From contig CAMLSI010000048.1 in the NCBI GenBank assembly GCA_946482585.1, positions 1 through 16,585 on the forward strand: a stretch of 16,585 bases of DNA. The letters run 5' to 3'. Every line of letters begins with the position of its first letter. Position 1 is the stretch's first letter. The notes under the pieces were generated by a model. That model did not search any database. It had not been told where the DNA came from and was given only the letters and a program-made list of their open reading frames with translations. The DNA is from an uncultured Lysobacteraceae bacterium (GTDB taxonomy: Bacteria > Pseudomonadota > Gammaproteobacteria > Xanthomonadales > Rhodanobacteraceae). Shown here in pieces: positions 1,536 through 11,017 of the stretch. Made by a program: the position numbers and the translations under genes.

Positions 1536-2276
1536 TCATGGCTTCCGCGCGCGTCGAAGCCGTGTGAACTCGGAAAACTCCCACTGCCGCAGGCCCAGCA
1601 TCAGACTGAAGCCGTCGCGTTCGCGCAGCGGCAGGCGCGCATCCTGGCGCGCCAGTTCGTCGAACTCCTGCGCGAGCCGGATCAGCGCCGTCTTCATCCG
1701 CGTTCGCGAACTCATCGACAGCATGCCGCTCAGGAAGCGGAACTCGTCGCCGACGCCGTCGAACCTGCCGCGCAGGAATTCGCCGGCCACGCGCGCGAGA
1801 AAGAATTCGTGCACCGGTCCGTCCTTGCGCCAGGCGAAGTTGCGCGCGGTCAGCTTCTTGACGCGTCGCGGCGGCCGGTAGTCGACGATACCCAGCTCGT
1901 CCAGGCGCAGCAGCAGACTGACCAGGCGCGCTTCGTCGAATTCGTAGGCCGTGGAAATTTCCGCGAGCTTCCAGTCGTTGACCAGCAGATAGGTCAGCAG
2001 CAGCAATTGCGGATCGCGCACGAGCGCACGTTCCTGCACCTCGCTGAGTTCCTGCAGCGCGGCCGGCGCCTGTCCGCCGTCGACGAGGTCGGAGAGGCTG
2101 AGCTCGAGCACCTCGCAGATCCGGTCGAGCCGGCCCAGCGAAAAATCGCCGCGGCTGAGATCGCGCTTGATCGTCGGTTCGCTGAGGTCGAGCAATTCGG
2201 CCAGCTGCCGGTAAGTCATGCCGCGCTGTCGCAGCACGCTGCGGATGTTGCGCACGAGGGTCTGTCCCGCGCTCAT
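1536..2276 (-). CDS. XRE/Cro-C1-type transcriptional regulator with a helical C-terminal domain
   Basis: 246 residues from ATG at 2276; the AGGGAA upstream is a fair ribosome site. Residues about 5-63 are a classical helix-turn-helix: LRQRGMTYRQLAELLDLSE, then the recognition helix SEPTIKRDLS at about 32-41, then the CEVLELSLSDLV helix. The remaining 180 residues are mainly helical. They include a possible second winged helix (KLAEISTAYEFDEARLVSLLLRLDELGIVDY) and a region recalling the DUF4423 domain of TIGR02147-type regulators; I offer that only as a resemblance. It is divergent from the ketosynthase operon with 132 nt between, the usual arrangement of a local regulator and its target. The same frame stays open through the ketosynthase on the opposite strand, but the ATG at 2276 has the ribosome site and begins the HTH domain. 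Confidence 0.85.
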   Translation of the reverse strand: MSAGQTLVRNIRSVLRQRGMTYRQLAELLDLSEPTIKRDLSRGDFSLGRLDRICEVLELSLSDLVDGGQAPAALQELSEVQERALVRDPQLLLLTYLLVNDWKLAEISTAYEFDEARLVSLLLRLDELGIVDYRPPRRVKKLTARNFAWRKDGPVHEFFLARVAGEFLRGRFDGVGDEFRFLSGMLSMSSRTRMKTALIRLAQEFDELARQDARLPLRERDGFSLMLGLRQWEFSEFTRLRRARKP

Positions 2277-2408: not shown

Positions 2409-3467
2409 ATGAGCCCAGCCACGCCCTTCCGCGCATTGCGCGCGGACGCCGCCCCGGCCACCTCGGCCTGCCGTCCGCTGCGCCTGCTCGGCAGCGGCGT
2501 CGCGAGCGCGGTGGCGACCGTGCCGAGTACGGCGATCGACGCGCGCCTGGGGCTTGCACCCGGCACCGTCGAACGGCGCAGCGGCGTGCGTTCGCGCGGC
2601 GTCGAGGCCCGTCGCAGCGCCGCCGAACTCGGCGCCGCGGCGGCGCGCGCCGCCGTCGCGGAAGCCAGCCTCGCATGGCACGAGATCGACGCCGTGATCG
2701 CCGCGAGCGCGACCATGGACCAGGCCATGCCGTGCAACGCCGCGCTGATCCATCGCGAACTCGGTCTCGGCGAGTACGGAATTCCGGCCTTCGACATCGG
2801 CGCGAGCTGCCTCGGCTTCGTCGTCGCGCTCGACACGGCCGCGGCGCTGCTGGCGGCCGGACGCTACCGGCGCGTGCTCGTCGTCGCGGCCGACATCGCT
2901 TCGTGCGGTCTGAACTGGGAACACCTCGAAGCCAGCGCGATCTTCGGCGACGGCGCGGCGGCCGTCGTCGTCGATGCCCACTCCCACGGCGACCGCGCCG
3001 GAGCCGGCGTGCTCGCCGCATCGTTCGCGACCTACAGCGAAGGCGCGCATTTCTGCGAGATCCGCGGCGGCGGTTCGCGCTATCACCCCAGCCGCATCGC
3101 CGAACCGTTCGCGCCGCTCGCGCAGTTCCGCATGGACGGCCAGGCCGTGTTTCGCCTCGCGAAGCGCCGCCTCGGCCCCTTCATCGACGCGCTCCTCGCC
3201 GACGCGGGCCTCACGCTCGCCGACATCGACCTCGTGATTCCGCACCAGGCGAGCCGGCACGGCCTCGATTTCCTCGCCCGATTGCTGCGCCTGCCGCGCG
3301 AGCGCATCGTCGACATCTTCGCGACGCATGGCAATCAGGTAGCCGCTTCGCTGCCGAGCGCGCTGCATCGCGCGAACAGCGAGGGCCGCCTGCGGCCGGG
3401 CACGCTGGCGCTGCTGATCGGAACCGGCGCCGGCGTCAGTTTCGGCGGCCTCGTGCTGCGCTGCTGA
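2409..3467 (+). CDS. 3-oxoacyl-ACP synthase III-like ketosynthase (FabH/OleA superfamily)
   Basis: 352 residues. ATG at 2409 is chosen because GAGGA lies 8 nt upstream; the frame opens earlier without support. The thiolase-fold catalytic triad is present: Cys134 in DIGASCLGF, His279 in VIPHQAS and Asn309 in THGNQVAAS. Other family blocks are AIFGDGAAAVVV (177-188), RMDGQAVFRLAKRRL (241-255) and the C-terminal GTGAGVSFGGL. Such enzymes condense an acyl thioester with malonyl-ACP (FabH) or with a second acyl-CoA (OleA) to make a beta-keto product in the cytosol. Roughly 26 residues before the Cys, where OleA keeps a catalytic Glu, I see MPCN and no Glu, so the OleA reaction should not be assumed. 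About 20 extra N-terminal residues precede the usual fold. It is the first gene of the operon and there is no ACP beside it, so it is unlikely to be housekeeping fabH. Confidence 0.9.
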   Translation: MSPATPFRALRADAAPATSACRPLRLLGSGVASAVATVPSTAIDARLGLAPGTVERRSGVRSRGVEARRSAAELGAAAARAAVAEASLAWHEIDAVIAASATMDQAMPCNAALIHRELGLGEYGIPAFDIGASCLGFVVALDTAAALLAAGRYRRVLVVAADIASCGLNWEHLEASAIFGDGAAAVVVDAHSHGDRAGAGVLAASFATYSEGAHFCEIRGGGSRYHPSRIAEPFAPLAQFRMDGQAVFRLAKRRLGPFIDALLADAGLTLADIDLVIPHQASRHGLDFLARLLRLPRERIVDIFATHGNQVAASLPSALHRANSEGRLRPGTLALLIGTGAGVSFGGLVLRC

Positions 3468-3477
3468 GGCGATCGCG

Positions 3478-4344
3478 ATGAACCCTGCCCCGCGCCTACG
3501 TGTCCATCTGCTGCAGGTCGGACAATGCCGCCATCCGGAATGGATCACGCTGCGCGGCGGCCGCTGGTCGGCCGCGCCGTTCCCGGCGCTCGCCGCGCTG
3601 TTGATCCATCCGCAGCGGGGCCCGATGCTGTACGACACGGGCTACGCGGCGCATTTCGACGCGGCGACGGCGCGTTTTCCCGAACGCCTCTACCGCTGGA
3701 TCACACCGGTGCAGTTGCCCGAGACGCAGACCCTGGAACGCCAGCTCGCGCGCCATGGTGTCGCGACCCGCGACATCGCGCGCGTGCTGATCTCGCATCT
3801 GCATGCGGACCATGTCGCGGGCCTGCGCGACCTGCCGCGCGCGCGCTTCACCGCGCTGCGCGCCGAAGTCGCGCAACTGCAGACACCGGGCCGCCTGAGG
3901 TTGCTCACGCGCGCCGTGCTGCCGGCGCTGCTGCCCGACGATTTCGCCGCGCGCCTCGACCATGCCGACGATGCGCCGGCCCGCGATCTCGGCCCGCTCT
4001 GGGCGCCGTTCGCGCGCGGTTTCGATCTGCTCGGCGACGGCAGCCTCGTCGCGGTGCCGCTGCCGGGCCACAGCAGCGCGCAGATGGGCGTGCTGCTGCG
4101 CGACGAGGACGACCGCCCGCTGCTGCTCGCGGCCGACGCCTGCTGGTCGGCACGCGCATGGCGCGAGCAGCGCCTGCCGTCGCTGTTCGCGCGTCCGCTG
4201 ATGCACGACTGGTCGGCGTATCGCACCACCCTCGCCGGGTTGCTCGCAGTCGCGCAGCGCCAGCCCGATCTGCTGATCGTGCCTTCGCACTGCGCCGACA
4301 CCATTGCCGCCTATGCGCCGCGCGCGCAGGAAGCTGCCGCATGA
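3478..4344 (+). CDS. Metallo-beta-lactamase-fold hydrolase (AHL-lactonase-like subgroup)
   Basis: 288 residues from ATG at 3478, 10 nt after the ketosynthase stop; its GAGG ribosome site overlaps that stop codon. The zinc motif HLHADH is at 107-112. Further ligands are expected at His198 (PGHSS), Asp220 (AADACW) and His271 (PSHCAD). YDTG at 52-55 is the usual strand-turn before the metal site. This is the layout of the two-zinc lactonase/thioesterase group that includes AiiA/AttM. No signal peptide, so cytosolic. In this operon a thioester, lactone or ester intermediate is a more likely substrate than a quorum-sensing lactone, but that is inference. It overlaps the next gene by ATGA (4341-4344). 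Confidence 0.9.
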   Translation: MNPAPRLRVHLLQVGQCRHPEWITLRGGRWSAAPFPALAALLIHPQRGPMLYDTGYAAHFDAATARFPERLYRWITPVQLPETQTLERQLARHGVATRDIARVLISHLHADHVAGLRDLPRARFTALRAEVAQLQTPGRLRLLTRAVLPALLPDDFAARLDHADDAPARDLGPLWAPFARGFDLLGDGSLVAVPLPGHSSAQMGVLLRDEDDRPLLLAADACWSARAWREQRLPSLFARPLMHDWSAYRTTLAGLLAVAQRQPDLLIVPSHCADTIAAYAPRAQEAAA

Positions 4345-5303
4345 AGAGCCCGCGACACATCCTCGTGACCGGCGCGTCGGGCTTCATCGGCTCTGCCTTT
4401 CTCGATCGCTACGCCGCACGCGACGACCTCGTGCTGCACGGTGTCGGCCGCCGCACGCTCGCACGCGCGAACTACACCGCGGTCGATCTCTCACGCCCGT
4501 TCGATATCCCGTTCCGGCCCGATGTCGTCATCCATGCCGCGGCGCGCTCGTCGCCCTGGGGCACGCCGCGGGACTATCGCCGCCACAACGTCGACGCGAC
4601 GCGCGAGGTGCTGGCCTGGTGCCGCCGCAACGGCCTGCCGCGCGTGGTCTACGTGTCCTCCAGTTCGGTGTTCTATCGCGATGCCGACCAGTTCGGCATC
4701 ACCGAAGACAGTCCGATCGGCCCGCAGTTCGTCAACGACTACGCCGCGACGAAATACGCCGGCGAGACGTTGGTCGCAGAGTACGAAGGCAGCTGGGTCG
4801 TGGCGCGGCCGCGCGCCGTGTTCGGTCCCGGCGACACGGTGCTGTTCCCGCGCATCCTGCGCGCGGCGCGGCGCGGCCGCCTGCCGCTGATCGACACCGG
4901 ACGCGCGCCCGCGGTCGGCGATCTGATCTATGTCGAAACGCTCTGCGACTACCTGCTGACGCTCGCGCTGCGCGACGATCTGCGCGGCAGCTACAACCTG
5001 ACCAACAACGCGCCCGTCGCCATCCAGACGTTCCTGCTCGACGCGTTCGACCGTCTCGGTCTGCCGGCGCCGCGGCGGCGCGTGTCGCTGCGCCTCGCGC
5101 GCAACGCGGCGACCCTGGGCGAATGGTTCTACCGCACGTTCCGCCTGCCGGGCGAACCGCCGATCACGCGTTTCGGCGTCGGCGTGTTCACGCAATCCAA
5201 GACCTTCGATGCGACGCGGACGCTGCGCGACCTCGGACCGCCGTCGGTCTCCCTCGACGAAGGCGTGGCGCGTTTCGTCGACTGGCAGCGCCGGCAATGC
5301 TGA
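4341..5303 (+). CDS. NAD(P)-dependent extended SDR, epimerase/3beta-HSD type, OleD-like
   Basis: 320 residues, start overlapping the previous stop (ATGA). The Rossmann motif TGASGFIG is at 10-17, the active-site serine stretch VSSSS at 105-109, and the catalytic Tyr134 and Lys138 in YAATK. RPRAVFGPGD (156-165) is the usual cofactor/substrate loop. The AARSSPWGTPRDYRRHNVDAT segment and the following VVYVSSSSVFYRDADQFGITED recall OleD, which reduces the beta-keto acid made by OleA to a beta-hydroxy acid. Sugar-nucleotide epimerases share the same fold, and a sugar-modifying role is the main alternative. Its place two genes after a ketosynthase favours lipid keto-reduction. It ends 7 nt inside the next gene. 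Confidence 0.88.
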   Translation: MKSPRHILVTGASGFIGSAFLDRYAARDDLVLHGVGRRTLARANYTAVDLSRPFDIPFRPDVVIHAAARSSPWGTPRDYRRHNVDATREVLAWCRRNGLPRVVYVSSSSVFYRDADQFGITEDSPIGPQFVNDYAATKYAGETLVAEYEGSWVVARPRAVFGPGDTVLFPRILRAARRGRLPLIDTGRAPAVGDLIYVETLCDYLLTLALRDDLRGSYNLTNNAPVAIQTFLLDAFDRLGLPAPRRRVSLRLARNAATLGEWFYRTFRLPGEPPITRFGVGVFTQSKTFDATRTLRDLGPPSVSLDEGVARFVDWQRRQC

Positions 5304-6442
5304 CCGTCTGCCTGCTGCTCTGCGCGCTCTACGCGCTGCTGCTGCTCGGCAAGACCGCGTTCGCGCTGCGCTATGCCGATGCGACGCAGCCGCGGGTCGC
5401 GGCGACGGTTCCGGTCACGACCATCCTGCAGCCGATACTCGGCGGCGATCCGGCCTTGTCCGAGGTACTCGAGAGCAACCTGCGCGCGCTGCCGCGATGC
5501 CGGTTCCTCTGGCTGATCGACGCGGATGACGCGATCGCGCAGGCGACCGCCGATGCGTTGCGCGCGCGCCATCCGCACATCGCCATCGAGTGCCTGCGGC
5601 TGCCGCCCGCACCGCACGGGCACAACCCCAAGATCCACAAACTGGACATTGCCGCGCGCCGGGTGACGACACCGCATCTGGTCGTGCTCGACGACGACAC
5701 GCACCTGCCGGCCGCCACGCTCGCGGAACTGCTCGCACGATTGCACCACGACGATCTCGCGACTGGCCTGCCCTGCTATCTCGACGACGGCCGCTTCGCA
5801 TCGCGCCTGCTGGCGCAGTTCGTCAACAACAGCGCGGCGCTCACCTATCTGCCGCTGCTGTCGGCCTGGCCCCCGGCCAGCATCAACGGCATGGGCTATG
5901 CGCTGCGCACCGACGCACTCGCGCGCATGGGCGGCTTCGCGCCGCTGGCGCGCCACCTGACCGACGACCTCGCAGTCGCGCTCGCGCTGCGCGCCAGCGG
6001 CGGCAGCATCCACCAGAGCGTCGCGCCGCTGTACGTGCGTACCAGCGTCCGCGATCTTCGTCACTACGCGCAGCTGCTGCATCGCTGGTTCCTGTTCGCG
6101 CTGCTGCTGCTCGAGCGTCAGCCGCGCGCGCTGCGCACGAACATCGTGATACTGCACGGCCTGCCGCCGCTGTTGCTCGCCGCCGCCTGCGCCAGTACGG
6201 CCTTCGCCGCCAGCCCGCTCGGCTGCGCCGCGCTGGCCGCGCTGTTCGTCGTCCGCGGTTTCGTGCTGCGCACCCTGCAGCGGCGTCTCACCGGCGAAAA
6301 CCGGCACCGCGTACTGCTGTCCGTATTCGCCGAACTGCTGCAGCCGCTGCATGCCCTGCACGCCCTGTTGCAGCGGCGCATCCGCTGGCGCACACGGCAC
6401 TACCGCGTGCGCGCGAACGACGATTTCGAACCGGTCGCATGA
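5297..6442 (+). CDS. Membrane glycosyltransferase, ceramide-glucosyltransferase-like (GT21/GT2)
   Basis: 381 residues, starting 7 nt before the SDR stop ends. A membrane anchor spans about 3-23, followed by a GT-A domain: D1 in LIDADDA (73-79), NPKIHKL (110-116), a DDDT metal site (132-135), the TDDLA acceptor aspartates (222-226), and LLHRW (260-264) in place of the (Q/R)XXRW motif. Two or three hydrophobic segments follow at about 264-320, and the tail has RIRWRTRHYRVR (361-372). NPKIHKL, the HRW region and the WRT..YR tail are features of GT21 enzymes (eukaryotic ceramide glucosyltransferase, bacterial HpnI), which move a sugar from a nucleotide donor to a membrane lipid at the cytosolic face. 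No sphingolipid gene is in the window, so the acceptor is probably the lipid made by this operon. Confidence 0.85.
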   Translation: MLTVCLLLCALYALLLLGKTAFALRYADATQPRVAATVPVTTILQPILGGDPALSEVLESNLRALPRCRFLWLIDADDAIAQATADALRARHPHIAIECLRLPPAPHGHNPKIHKLDIAARRVTTPHLVVLDDDTHLPAATLAELLARLHHDDLATGLPCYLDDGRFASRLLAQFVNNSAALTYLPLLSAWPPASINGMGYALRTDALARMGGFAPLARHLTDDLAVALALRASGGSIHQSVAPLYVRTSVRDLRHYAQLLHRWFLFALLLLERQPRALRTNIVILHGLPPLLLAAACASTAFAASPLGCAALAALFVVRGFVLRTLQRRLTGENRHRVLLSVFAELLQPLHALHALLQRRIRWRTRHYRVRANDDFEPVA

Positions 6443-6996
6443 GGCCGCACTGGCAGATCGCGTTCCTGACCGGCCAGAGCGACGCCGGCGCCTGCGCGCT
6501 CAGCGACGTGCAGCGCCGTTTCATCGACAGGCTCGACAACGCGCCCGCGATTCCGCGGAATTTTCCGTACGACGCCGAAACCCGGCCGTTCGCGCCGACA
6601 CCGCTGCTGCGCGCGAGCTTCAACAACGCGCGGCAATACTGGGCCTCGCGTACGCGCGCGTTCCGCCAACGCCATCGCCCGGCCGTCGAACGCCTGCTCG
6701 ACGGCGCCGAGCGCAGCGTGCTGCTGACCGGCAGCTGCGGCCTCGAATTGTTCAACAACCTCGCGCTGCCGCGCGCCTGGCTCGATCGCATCGTCGTGTT
6801 CGCCTACGGACCCGTCGCGCGACGCCGGCCCGATTGCGACGCCGTACTCGTCCAGGGTCGCCGCGATCTCATCTCGCGCTGCTGGTTCCGCCGCGTCGAC
6901 ATTCGCGTCGACGCCGGGCACATGGACTACCTCGCACGCGAGGAGGTGCTGCAGCACTGCCGCGCGATGCTCGCCCGCTGGGGCGTTCGCGCATGA
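6439..6996 (+). CDS. Protein of unknown family, possibly a small alpha/beta-hydrolase
   Basis: 185 residues, joined by ATGA overlaps to the genes on both sides (6439-6442 and 6993-6996), so it is almost surely translated with them. I do not recognise the family. Visible features are a hydrophobic strand, then VLLTGSCGLEL (94-104), which resembles a nucleophile elbow with Ser99 or Cys100, then VVFAYGPVA (119-127), and near the end VDAGHMDYL (157-165), where His161 would fit a catalytic His. The spacing (nucleophile, strands, late His) suits a reduced alpha/beta-hydrolase such as a thioesterase or esterase. The first 90 residues are Arg-rich with a PRNFPYD stretch and look like a lid or cap. 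No signal peptide or membrane segment. The assignment rests on motif shape only. Confidence 0.75.
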   Translation: MRPHWQIAFLTGQSDAGACALSDVQRRFIDRLDNAPAIPRNFPYDAETRPFAPTPLLRASFNNARQYWASRTRAFRQRHRPAVERLLDGAERSVLLTGSCGLELFNNLALPRAWLDRIVVFAYGPVARRRPDCDAVLVQGRRDLISRCWFRRVDIRVDAGHMDYLAREEVLQHCRAMLARWGVRA

Positions 6997-8243
6997 ACCG
7001 GCATCGCGTCGCGCTCGTCGCACCGCCGTTCAGCGGACACCTGCATCCGCTGCTCGGCATCGGCCGCGCGCTGCGCGACCACGTCGACGTCCGCGTCTTC
7101 AGCAGCACCGCCGCGCAGGCGGCCATCGCGTCCGCGGATCTCGACGGCCGTGCGCTGCTGGCCGGCTGCGATGCCGCGATCGCCGCGATCGCCGATCCGC
7201 CGCGCCGTGCGGGCAGCAATCCGCTGCGCCTGCACGCGCAACTGCGCGCGAACCTCGCGCTGATGCAGCGCTTCCGCAGCGAACTCGATGCCGCCCTGCG
7301 CGAGTGGCGACCCCAGCTCGTGATCGCCGATTTCACCGTGCCCGTCGCCGGCGCCGTCGCGCGTGCGCTGCGGATTCCGTGGTGGACCAGCCTGCCTTCG
7401 CCGTGCGTCGTCGAAGCCGCGGGAGGTCCGCCGGCTTATCTCGGCGGCTGGAAACCGCGCGGCGACGCGTTCGGACGCACACGCGACGCCCTGGGCCGCT
7501 TCGCCATCCGCGCGTTCAAGCGCAGCGTGGGGTTCGTCTATCGCCGACAGCTCGCAGCACTCGGCATCGACAGTCTCTATCGCCGCGACGGCAGCGAAGC
7601 CGTCTATTCCGACGAACGCATACTCGCGCTGGGTTCTCAGGAATTCGAGTACGCGCGCGACTGGCCGGCAGCGCTCACGTTCACGGGCCCCGTGCTCTAT
7701 ACACCGCCCTACGACGGACCCGCACCCGCGTTCACTGACGGCAAGCCGCACGTGCTCGTGACACTCGGCACGCATCTGCGCGCGCACAAACCCAGCACGA
7801 TCGCCGCCGTCCGCGCCGCCGCGCGCCTGCTGCCCCACATCGAATTTCATTTCACTCACGGGGATCCGCACAGCGCTCAACGCGTCCACGACGGCAACTA
7901 TCAGGAACTCGCCTACGTGTCCTACGCACGCGACCTGCCGCGCTATGAGCTCGTCGTCCACCACGGTGGCGCGGGCATCCTCTACCGCTGCCTCAGCCTC
8001 GGCATTCCCGCGCTCGTATTGCCGCTCGACTACGACCAGTTCGATCATGCGGCACGTCTCGAATCGACCGGCGTGGCGCGATGGCTGCGGACGCCGGGCG
8101 AACTGTCGCGAGCCGTCGGCGCCGCTATCGACGATGAAGCGTTGCGCACGCAGTGCCGCGCATTCCGGCGACGGCTCTGCGCTGGCGGTGCGGAAATCCG
8201 CATCGCCCACGCCGTGCGGGAACGACTCGGCACGATGGGGTGA
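6993..8243 (+). CDS. GT1-family (UGT/MGT-type) glycosyltransferase
   Basis: 416 residues, start overlapping the previous stop. Two Rossmann lobes as in GT-B enzymes. The N-terminal PPFSGHLHPLLGIGRAL contains His16, the usual catalytic base of GT1. The C-terminal half has VLVTLGTHLRAHK (donor lobe entry), YVSYARDLPRYELVVHHGGAGI around 310-330 (the HHGGAGT-type donor-binding motif) and IPALVLPLDYDQFDHAARLE, a relative of the usual P...DQ..NA segment. Relatives glycosylate small hydrophobic acceptors: macrolides, sterols, carotenoids (CrtX) and hydroxy-fatty-acid lipids (RhlB). As last gene of the operon it probably adds a sugar to the same lipid handled by the upstream enzymes. No signal peptide; peripheral or cytosolic. 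Donor and acceptor cannot be read from the sequence. Confidence 0.9.
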   Translation: MNRHRVALVAPPFSGHLHPLLGIGRALRDHVDVRVFSSTAAQAAIASADLDGRALLAGCDAAIAAIADPPRRAGSNPLRLHAQLRANLALMQRFRSELDAALREWRPQLVIADFTVPVAGAVARALRIPWWTSLPSPCVVEAAGGPPAYLGGWKPRGDAFGRTRDALGRFAIRAFKRSVGFVYRRQLAALGIDSLYRRDGSEAVYSDERILALGSQEFEYARDWPAALTFTGPVLYTPPYDGPAPAFTDGKPHVLVTLGTHLRAHKPSTIAAVRAAARLLPHIEFHFTHGDPHSAQRVHDGNYQELAYVSYARDLPRYELVVHHGGAGILYRCLSLGIPALVLPLDYDQFDHAARLESTGVARWLRTPGELSRAVGAAIDDEALRTQCRAFRRRLCAGGAEIRIAHAVRERLGTMG

Positions 8244-8591: not shown

Positions 8592-8854
8592 CAAGTCTCT
8601 CCTTTGGGGTGAGCTGCGCGGTTGCGCTCCCTGGTTTCCGCAAGCCGCGTGCCATCGGCCGAGTCCGCCGCAATGCCGCATGGCTGCGTCGCCGGCCTCG
8701 GCATTCCGCACCGTCGTCCGGCGGCATCGTGCAGGATGCGCCGTGCGGGACCGCTCGACAGCCAATGCTGGAGTTCTGCGAAATCCCGCCGGACTCCCGC
8801 GTATTCTGTCGGCATCGTCGCGCGGCCGCGCGACACGCCCAGACGGAGTTCTCC
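8592..8854. promoter_or_regulatory. Divergent intergenic region with an 18-bp palindrome
   Basis: These 263 nt separate the small disordered gene (minus) from the CotH gene (plus) and must hold both promoters. GTCGCGCGGCCGCGCGAC at 8817-8834 is a perfect 18-bp palindrome with no spacer, ending 20 nt before the CotH ATG. TATTCT at 8802-8807 is a passable -10 for the plus-strand gene, but I find no good -35 at normal spacing. Confidence 0.4.
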
Positions 8855-11017
8855 ATGGATTCGCTGCGCCGACTCGCCGCCCGCGCGTTGCTGCTGTTCG
8901 CCCTGCCGTTCGTCGCGGCCGCGCAGGATTTCTACGATCCAGCGACCCTGCGCACCGTGAACCTCCAGTTCCACGACGCGAACTGGCTGACCCTGCTGCG
9001 GCAGAACTACGCCTCGGAGACCAACATCCTCGCCGACCTCACGGTCGACGGTGTCACCTATCCGAGCGTCGGCGTGCGCATCCGCGGCAATACGTCATAT
9101 ACCGCGCTGCCCGGCGGCTCGGAGAAGTTCTCGCTCAAAGTCGAGACCGATTTCGTTGATCCGGAGCAGGAAATCCTGGGTTACGACACCTTCAACTTCA
9201 ACAACGGATTCCGCGATCCGACCTTCAGCCGGGAGGTCGTCTACAACAACTACGTCGCGCAGTTCATTCCAAATCCGCGCGCGAACAACATCGTGCTGAC
9301 GTTGAACGGACAGAACTGGGGCGTCTACATCAACGTGCAGCAGCCCGACAAGCGCATGCTGCGCGATTATTTCGTCAACGCCGACGGCCTGCGCATCCGC
9401 TGCGCGAACCAGCCGAACGGCCCGGGGCTCGCCTACAACGGCACGGCCGCGTCGGGGTATACGGCCTATGAGATCCAGGCCGACGGCGGCCTCGCCGATC
9501 CGCTCGGCGCGCTGATCGCGGTCACGAATTCGCTGAGCAACGAACCGCTCGCGACCTGGCCGAACATCGACACGAAGTTCGCGATCGATCCGTCGATCTG
9601 GTCGGTCGCGCTCGAGAACTTCCTGACCGACGACGACAGCTACGTGAGCAAGGGTTGCGATTTCATGACCTACCGCGATCCGCTCGACAGCCGCATGCAC
9701 CTGATGCAGCGCGACGCGAACGAGACGTTCACGCGGGCCACCTGGTCGCACACGCTGAACTTCAACCTGGCCAACAAACCCGTGCTGAATCGCGTGCTGT
9801 CGGTGCCCGAGCTGCGCCAGCGGTACCTGGCGCATTACCGCACGCTCAAGCGCGACCTGAGCTGGGACTATTTCGGGCCGCAATTTACCGCGCGGCGCGC
9901 GCTACTCGACGCCGCGGTCCAGGCCGACCCCAAGAAGCTCTACAGCCATACGCTGTTCCAGGACAATTTCACGAGCACCGTGACCATGCCCTATTCCGGC
10001 CTGGCCGGCGGCAGCCTGATCGGCCTGCAGCAGTTCGTGACGCAGCGCGCGACCTTCCTCAGCGCCAATGCCGAACTGTCAGCGAGCGGCCCGACGATAT
10101 CGGCGGCACAGGCTTCGACGACGACGCCGGCGCCGGCGCAGGCCGTCACGATCACGGCGACGGCCGCGCCCGCGGGGAGCGCGATTTCCAAAGTGGAATT
10201 GTTCTATCGTCCGGATGCCGGCAGCGTCTACCTGCGCACGCCGATGCTCGACGACGGCAACTCCGGCGATGGCGCCGCGGGCGACGGCGTCTACGGCGTC
10301 GCCCTGCCGGTTGCCGGCACCGCGGGACAACGCGTCGCGTGGTACGTCGCCGCCACTGCGTCGAATGCGTATTCCTCGCTGAGCTTCCTGCCGGAACTGG
10401 CGGAACGCGATTCGAACCTCGTGCAGTACACGGCCTCGGCGAACAGCGCCGGCCTGCGCATCACGGAGTGGATGTACGCCGGAGTCAGCGGCGAGTTCGT
10501 CGAATTGACCAACCTCGGCGCCCAGGCGATCGATTTGACGGGCTGGAGCCTCGACGACGACCACGCGGTGGCCGGCGCGTTCAGCCTGAGCGCTTTCGGC
10601 ACCGTGCAACCCGGCGAGTCGGTGGTCGTGACCGAAAGCGTCGACAGCAATTTCCGCGCGGCGTGGACACTCGCGCCGACGGTCAAGGTGATCGGCCAGC
10701 TCGGCGTCGCGTCCGGCAACAACTTCGGCCGAGCCGATCAGATCCATCTGTTCAACGCGAGCAACCTGCTCGAAGACCGTCTCGACTACGGCGACCAGAC
10801 CTATGCCGGCAGCATCCGGACGCAGAACGCGAGCGGCCAGGTGCCCTGCAGCGCGATCGCGCAGAACACGGTCATGGCCTGGCAGCTCTCGGCCGTCGGC
10901 GATGCCTTCGGTTCGCACACCGCCACGAGCGGCGACGTCGGCACGCCGGGCAGCTTCGTGCTCGTCAATTGCGCCGCCAACGACGCGATCTTCAGCGACG
11001 GATTCGAGACACCCTGA
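8855..11017 (+). CDS. Secreted CotH-kinase family protein with lamin-tail domain
   Basis: 720 residues from ATG at 8855, with GGAG 6 nt upstream. Residues 1-23 are a signal peptide (LLLFALPFVAAAQ). Residues about 30-410 match the CotH family, atypical protein kinases first known from spore coats: VGVRIRGNTSYTALPGGSEKFSLKVE, FNNGFRDPTFSREVVYNNYVAQ, LTLNGQNWGVYINVQQPDKRML and ENFLTDDDSYV. Many relatives have Glu where this one has the second Gln of NVQQ. An Ig-like beta domain follows at about 410-525, then a lamin-tail (LTD) domain at about 533-650 starting LRITEWMY and containing FVELTNLGAQAIDLTGWSLDDD. The tail ends in IFSDGFE (712-718) plus two residues. The layout indicates an extracellular or surface protein. 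Kinase activity and substrate are not shown. Single transcription unit with a hairpin after it. Confidence 0.88.
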   Translation: MDSLRRLAARALLLFALPFVAAAQDFYDPATLRTVNLQFHDANWLTLLRQNYASETNILADLTVDGVTYPSVGVRIRGNTSYTALPGGSEKFSLKVETDFVDPEQEILGYDTFNFNNGFRDPTFSREVVYNNYVAQFIPNPRANNIVLTLNGQNWGVYINVQQPDKRMLRDYFVNADGLRIRCANQPNGPGLAYNGTAASGYTAYEIQADGGLADPLGALIAVTNSLSNEPLATWPNIDTKFAIDPSIWSVALENFLTDDDSYVSKGCDFMTYRDPLDSRMHLMQRDANETFTRATWSHTLNFNLANKPVLNRVLSVPELRQRYLAHYRTLKRDLSWDYFGPQFTARRALLDAAVQADPKKLYSHTLFQDNFTSTVTMPYSGLAGGSLIGLQQFVTQRATFLSANAELSASGPTISAAQASTTTPAPAQAVTITATAAPAGSAISKVELFYRPDAGSVYLRTPMLDDGNSGDGAAGDGVYGVALPVAGTAGQRVAWYVAATASNAYSSLSFLPELAERDSNLVQYTASANSAGLRITEWMYAGVSGEFVELTNLGAQAIDLTGWSLDDDHAVAGAFSLSAFGTVQPGESVVVTESVDSNFRAAWTLAPTVKVIGQLGVASGNNFGRADQIHLFNASNLLEDRLDYGDQTYAGSIRTQNASGQVPCSAIAQNTVMAWQLSAVGDAFGSHTATSGDVGTPGSFVLVNCAANDAIFSDGFETP

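Follow-up and report, generated by a model that had tools for sequence, protein, structure and literature searches.

The 16,585-nucleotide stretch of DNA analysed here (the window; contig CAMLSI010000048.1, from an uncultured Lysobacteraceae bacterium) contains a compact operon at positions 2409-8243, and raises the question of what its six products could make together: a ketosynthase III (KS), a metallo-beta-lactamase-fold hydrolase (MBL), an extended short-chain dehydrogenase/reductase (SDR), a GT21-type glycosyltransferase, a small alpha/beta serine hydrolase (ABH) and a GT1-type glycosyltransferase. A previous annotation made from the letters alone (hereafter, the sequence-only reading) had described six plus-strand genes with gaps of 10 nucleotides (nt) or less, four of five junctions overlapping and a divergent helix-turn-helix (HTH) regulator. 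The re-derived coordinates match this description exactly, with a gap of 10 nt between KS and MBL and overlaps of 4, 7, 4 and 4 nt at the other junctions. Its family assignments also agree with the profile scans (KS III, Lactamase_B, OleD-nearest SDR, Glyco_transf_21 and GT1-type). We favour, with a probability of about 0.5, the interpretation that this operon represents an abbreviated version of a widespread glycolipid pathway, in which two acyl chains would be joined, released, reduced and glycosylated to yield a two-tailed, ceramide-like glycolipid.

A search of genome contigs with an ABH profile (A1) provided 40 loci from 66 pattern matches, which were then searched with the window's proteins and with the ligase of locus L006. 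All six genes were present on one strand in 34 of the 40 loci, a co-occurrence that is conditional on ABH, through which the loci were collected, the frequency of KS alone lying outside this count. Given this figure, and dN/dS values of 0.20-0.47 for the operon genes against the two nearest relatives (just 42 codons for GT1 against L002), the grouping of the six genes exceeds what chance would provide. The full loci span five phyla (Pseudomonadota, Verrucomicrobiota, Acidobacteriota, Gemmatimonadota and Planctomycetota), and a sixth, Actinomycetota, is represented by two Agromyces loci without MBL. The nearest loci (L001-L003) belong to the Lysobacterales and include Tahibacter caeni, so that the window probably comes from this group as well. 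The sequence-only reading had proposed to look for the six families across the Lysobacterales; their co-occurrence extends far beyond that order, within which it is patchy. In a less biased sampling, ABH was detected in 7 of 299 genomes drawn from the order to which the L001 genome belongs; for the order of the Citrobacter gillenii genome the figure was 3 of 394, with the starting genome included in each count. Five of six further Lysobacterales genomes carried the full six-gene operon, the sixth being broken. Where it occurs, the cluster is hence conserved, yet its distribution is patchy. Locus L063 (8245-11495), from a Lysobacterales genome, holds the cluster in broken form.

The comparison also revealed that the gene complement of the window is not the most common one. 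Eleven of the 34 full loci follow the order KS-MBL-LIG-SDR-GT21-ABH-GT1, where LIG denotes a PaaK-like adenylate-forming ligase, and another 11, all from Enterobacterales, have the same order, ligase included, plus a second OleD-like SDR between KS and MBL. The ligase is absent from ten loci (three in the window's group and seven in the Luteimonas group) and from two rearranged ones, L038 and L040, the former counted as full with its SDR matched in two pieces and its GT1 in three. The window operon is thus reduced relative to a cluster of seven or eight genes. The absence of an acyl-CoA ligase reported in the sequence-only reading holds for the window, but not as the norm of the cluster, since 22 of the 34 full loci have the ligase between MBL and SDR. 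In the four loci scanned, it belongs to TIGR02304 (F390 synthetase-related protein; 386-627 bits, cut-off 252), with no Pfam match and weak relatives in PDB of the phenylacetate-CoA-ligase type. When 16 genomes were queried for it, the ligase was found in Agromyces tardus and Citrobacter gillenii, and was not found in 12 Lysobacterales genomes or in those of L038 and L040, some of these being incomplete drafts. Its presence requires a minimum of four changes on the KS tree. No paper on the F390 synthetase-related family was found in the PubMed Central (PMC) literature; the available text of one report places a ligase annotated as F390 synthetase in a fatty-acid cluster of D. psychrophila, which is a different setting (PMC2649909). 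Five enterobacterial loci (L013, L016, L017, L019 and L022) have in common three insert families between ligase and SDR, which in L013 (3778-7912) correspond to a PAP2 protein, a fatty-acid hydroxylase and a fatty-acid desaturase.

The window KS matches ACP_syn_III_C (96 bits), presents a Cys-His-Asn triad and scores below the cut-offs of the fabH subfamily models (202 bits against 292 for TIGR00747; 226 against 249 for PRK09352). In the KS profile search, MxnB reached 304 bits versus 146 for PqsD, and MxnB/CorB scored about 70 bits over the best FabH; they were also the top matches for the predicted KS structure. Both in profile score and in predicted fold, the window KS is thus nearer to MxnB/CorB than to FabH or OleA. 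The structural comparison with FabH and OleA that the sequence-only reading had called for led to a different nearest relative, and the catalytic glutamate of OleA is absent: a Met replaces Glu117 in the window, and 35 of the 36 cluster KS rows have a hydrophobic residue there, the exception being Glu in L037; Glu was also read by eye in L039. In a tree with all rows, the KS groups with MxnB/CorB, away from FabH (support 95/91), a separation that is lost once long branches are removed (see below); KS matches shorter than 850 bases (L003, L007, L022 and L039) were omitted from the tree. MxnB has been described to join two long chains, and the available text of the same report indicates, from 18O work, that no beta-keto acid is formed by hydrolysis in its reaction (PMC5724707).

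A natural exchange of KS type in Agromyces bears on the function of MBL. The order in L037 is LIG-SDR-GT21-ABH-GT1-KS, and its KS groups with OleA (99/96, on a long branch) and carries a Glu-Pro motif, which was also read by eye in L039. The L037 KS is of the OleA type: PRK09258 is its best NCBIfam model, although the score remains below the cut-off (159 bits, cut-off 285). MBL was not found in either Agromyces genome at an E-value of 0.001, and was present in the four other genomes queried. The physiological product of OleA is a beta-keto acid, according to the available text of two reports (PMC7064751, PMC4578411). Since MBL is absent where KS is OleA-type, and since OleA yields a beta-keto acid whereas MxnB forms none by hydrolysis, the simplest reading is that MBL would serve the MxnB-like KS as thioesterase. 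In both Agromyces loci, KS is immediately followed by a frame that by eye looks like a cytochrome P450 (L037:11880-14100 and L039:3200-5600), and this combination resembles an OleA-glycosyltransferase-OleC-P450-OleD cluster of Actinoplanes atraurantiacus, for which the authors of that study propose a glycosylated Ole product (PMC7064751, as far as its available text goes). In addition to its cluster KS, one Stenotrophomonas genome (G007) has another KS gene, of the OleA type (L049; 466 bits with PRK09258).

The remaining enzymes retain the residues expected for catalysis. MBL matches Lactamase_B (51 bits), and among the models compared the N-acyl-homoserine lactone (AHL) lactonase model scores best, although the AttM equivalog cut-off is not reached (80 bits, cut-off 390). 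Its metal ligands are present: HxHxDH, His198 and Asp220 are kept in 36 of 36 rows. His271 is seen in 25 of them; the remaining 11 have a gap there, their tblastn segments having ended before this position. The SDR belongs to the NAD epimerase family and its best NCBIfam models are those of OleD (146 bits, cut-off 580), as is also the case for the only second SDR scanned, from L009; Tyr134 and Lys138 are kept in all 52 rows, second SDRs included. ABH did not match any Pfam or NCBIfam model, and its profile returned no sequence relative in PDB at E-values up to 1. The predicted triad (Ser99, Asp143 and His161) is nonetheless kept in 41 of 41 rows, and the protein has an alpha/beta hydrolase fold. 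OleB is not named among the 50 structure matches listed for ABH, an outcome that is uninformative either way.

GT21 matches Glyco_transf_21 (110 bits, cut-off 21.7) and presents the DxD and (Q/R)xxRW motifs that characterise this family, the latter as QLLHRW in the window, with Q, R and E in 14, 21 and 3 of the 38 rows at its first position. D75, D132, D134, D223, R263 and W264 are kept in all 38 rows, and hydrophobic segments occur at both ends of the protein (1-25 and 281-327). Among solved structures, ceramide glucosyltransferase was the sole relative at E-values up to 0.01 (39 bits, E 7e-9, residues 28-373). GT1 matches EryCIII-like_C and Glyco_tran_28_C, with natural-product transferases as nearest relatives; His324 and Asp348 are kept in 37 of 37 rows and Gln349 in 36.

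On the basis of gene content, conservation, catalytic residues and nearest enzyme families, the following model of reactions, substrates and product can be put forward. KS would load an acyl chain on Cys134 and link it with a second acyl thioester at the alpha-carbon of the latter; MBL would hydrolyse the resulting two-tailed beta-keto thioester, the carboxyl being either kept or lost as CO2. The OleD-like SDR, in enterics together with the second SDR, would reduce the ketone to a hydroxyl, which GT21 would glycosylate at the inner membrane, much as ceramide is glycosylated by ceramide glucosyltransferase. GT1 might then add a second sugar, and ABH might edit or trim an ester or thioester. The TIGR02304 ligase of most relatives would activate one of the acids, and in the Lysobacterales the activated chains would have to come from general metabolism. 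Such a product appears the most likely one in view of the six-gene co-occurrence, the MxnB/CorB-nearest KS, the Agromyces exchange, the OleD-nearest SDRs, the relation of GT21 to ceramide glucosyltransferase, the lipid-gene inserts of L013 and the glycosylated Ole product proposed for Actinoplanes. Several observations weigh against this two-chain model. The best scores of MBL are those of lactonases and the SDR falls far under the OleD cut-off. MxnB substrates are beta-keto compounds, and the missing OleA glutamate calls for deprotonation by another route, as proposed for MxnB. The argument from the KS exchange comes from one genus and two genomes. Finally, in a KS tree without six long rows (two FabH and four cluster KS), the MxnB/CorB clade receives support of 52/83 and is no longer separated from FabH, a grouping with FabH not being rejected (p-AU 0.41), so that a FabH-like reaction with malonyl units is conceivable.

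This last result also leaves room for a single-chain route, in which a FabH/PqsD-like KS would use a malonyl unit to elongate a single activated acyl group, fatty or aromatic, and, through a PqsE-like MBL thioesterase, SDR reduction and the transferases, lead to a rhamnolipid-like or aryl-lipid glycoside. The scores of KS with FabH-type models (226 and 202 bits), the missing OleA glutamate and the weakly PaaK-like ligase can all be accommodated by it. The PaaK-like family often activates aromatic acids, and the combination of KS, MBL and PaaK-like ligase resembles PqsD, PqsE and PqsA. We nevertheless consider this route rather unlikely, since MxnB/CorB outscore the best FabH and rank top in structure, PqsD is a distant match and the Agromyces KS is OleA-type. 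The relation to MxnB/CorB, which form pyrones, suggests in turn that the product could be an alpha-pyrone or a small signal or antibiotic decorated with sugars by both transferases and tuned or degraded by MBL and the serine hydrolase. The proximity of MBL to AHL lactonases and of GT1 to natural-product transferases would fit such a product, as would a patchiness resembling that of secondary metabolism (7/299 and 3/394 genomes). The operon products include no polyketide synthase (PKS) or carrier protein, however, and a membrane GT21 related to ceramide glucosyltransferase, together with the lipid-gene inserts, points to a membrane lipid, so that we regard a small-molecule product as improbable. 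Least credible, and indeed very improbable, is a cluster modifying an existing lipid (hopanoid, sterol-like or carotenoid), for which KS would make an acyl ornament: the SDR and GT21 do resemble HpnA and HpnI, but their scores are far below the cut-offs (68 against 368 and 108 against 310 bits), and among the families listed no neighbour keeps its position across groups, the flank families lacking annotation.

Comparison with characterised systems delimits the cluster further. The resemblance to Ole systems comprises a KS III (OleA-type in Agromyces), an OleD-nearest SDR and, in most relatives, an adenylate-forming ligase; the Actinoplanes cluster mentioned above also includes a glycosyltransferase, its product being its authors' inference in the available text (PMC7064751). 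On the other hand, the relatives' ligase is TIGR02304, the KS rows outside Agromyces lack Glu117, and the cluster has MBL, a serine hydrolase, GT21 and GT1. The OleABCD olefin/beta-lactone pathway was rejected on the Met at the Glu117 position, the OleD score and the absence of OleB and OleC among the window's six gene products, the relatives having been scanned with other models. With MxnB/CorB, of the myxopyronin and corallopyronin pathways and nearest to it in sequence and structure among solved proteins, KS shares the Cys-His-Asn triad and a hydrophobic residue at the OleA Glu position, but those enzymes operate in PKS pathways making pyrones, whereas the operon has a reductase and glycosyltransferases and no PKS or acyl carrier protein. 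The early Pseudomonas quinolone signal (PQS) pathway, compared here through its ketosynthase PqsD, combines a ligase, a KS III and an MBL-fold hydrolase, as in the ligase-bearing relatives. The window operon differs in that it has no ligase and its KS is far from PqsD (146 bits, against 304 for MxnB); the SDR and two transferases are additional. GT21 has a near full-length relation to ceramide glucosyltransferase and HpnI (39 and 108 bits), with motifs kept, but it lies below the HpnI cut-off, and the operon contains no sphingolipid or hopanoid gene. A sphingolipid locus and hopanoid glycosylation were rejected on these grounds. The statements of the sequence-only reading that this is neither the olefin pathway nor a known sphingolipid locus hence stand. 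Of the refuting conditions that it had set, rare co-occurrence of the six genes is contradicted by the 34 of 40 loci, and a match to a characterised pathway did not emerge: no description of the cluster was found among the papers listed from the PMC literature, which leaves out preprints and most subscription papers, so that this is not proof of absence. Its glycolipid interpretation is retained as regards a conserved operon and, most likely, a glycosylated lipid, and was corrected as regards the nature of KS, the gene complement and the taxonomic range.

A more specific proposal, advanced tentatively, is that members of six or more bacterial phyla, including some Enterobacteriaceae, may make a two-tailed glycolipid with C-C joined tails, either an alpha-alkyl-beta-hydroxy acid or its secondary alcohol. 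Such a lipid would resemble mycolates or ceramides, yet it would arise without sphingolipid enzymes, and a relative of ceramide glucosyltransferase would glycosylate it. A conserved, lipid-like pathway common to environmental and enteric bacteria, for which we found no product description, would, if the model holds, generate a two-tailed membrane glycolipid by head-to-head condensation, and the model would assign roles to the orphan families ABH and TIGR02304 and provide testable enzymes for joining acyl chains. The exchange of KS type in Agromyces makes the order of reactions directly testable.

Features of the operon and its divergent neighbour in the window
Feature	Position	Strand	Basis or remark
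KS III, MxnB/CorB-like	2409..3467	+	reading frame; Cys134, His279, Asn309; Met at OleA Glu117 position
MBL, AHL-lactonase-like; proposed thioesterase	3478..4344	+	reading frame and profiles
Extended SDR, OleD models nearest (below cut-off); proposed beta-keto reductase	4341..5303	+	
Membrane GT21-type glycosyltransferase (ceramide glucosyltransferase/HpnI-like)	5297..6442	+	
Small alpha/beta serine hydrolase (ABH), predicted triad Ser99-Asp143-His161	6439..6996	+	
GT1-type (GT-B) glycosyltransferase	6993..8243	+	
Cro/C1-type HTH regulator, divergent	1536..2276	-	possible operon regulator in window's lineage

The six loci counted as incomplete vary in nature. L005 is interrupted by a contig end, with KS, an SDR, MBL, the ligase and part of GT21 on L054 of the same genome, and L008 is a second, partial copy (SDR, ABH and GT1) in Citrobacter gillenii, whose full cluster is L016. 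L024 and L029 have KS-SDR-MBL at separate sites (L043/L044). Besides lacking MBL, like L037, L039 begins inside GT21 and has its SDR and ligase on L042/L057. A plasmid tblastn search with ABH gave no match. In Stenotrophomonas, KS-SDR-MBL (L043/L044) are found apart from SDR-GT21-ABH-GT1 (L024/L029), hinting at two functional modules. The left-hand neighbour of the cluster (narI in L013, where it was scanned) and the genes on its right are common to L010, L013, L016 and L023, which hints at a single insertion site used in these four enterobacterial genomes. Among the frame families listed for the 40 loci (the first 60 of those in at least four loci), no extra family accompanies the cluster at a constant position from group to group.

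The window's KS, MBL and ABH are closer to those of Acidobacteriota and Gemmatimonadota than to those of Luteimonas, the SDR slightly so, and the KS tree rejects a single Lysobacterales clade (p-AU 0.0005); with the long rows removed, no starred set places the window KS. Transfer of the operon as one unit is not claimed, the identities of GT21 and GT1 showing no clear difference.

The HTH gene points away from the operon, from which it is separated by 132 bases, and is found next to it in 3 of 40 loci (L001, 91%; L002, 89%; and, more weakly, L015, 37%), L003 being uninformative because its contig begins inside KS. The scan for promoters did not find a sigma-70-like site, and terminator-like sites occurred at chance level. 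The flanks are ordinary, with a partial ApbE gene, an outer-membrane barrel, a CotH/LTD protein, GGACT, tRNA-Thr, a phage-integrase-family protein (presumably XerD-like), an RDD protein and LptF/G. The CotH kinase and lamin-tail-domain protein is encoded downstream on the same strand (8609-11017), outside the operon.

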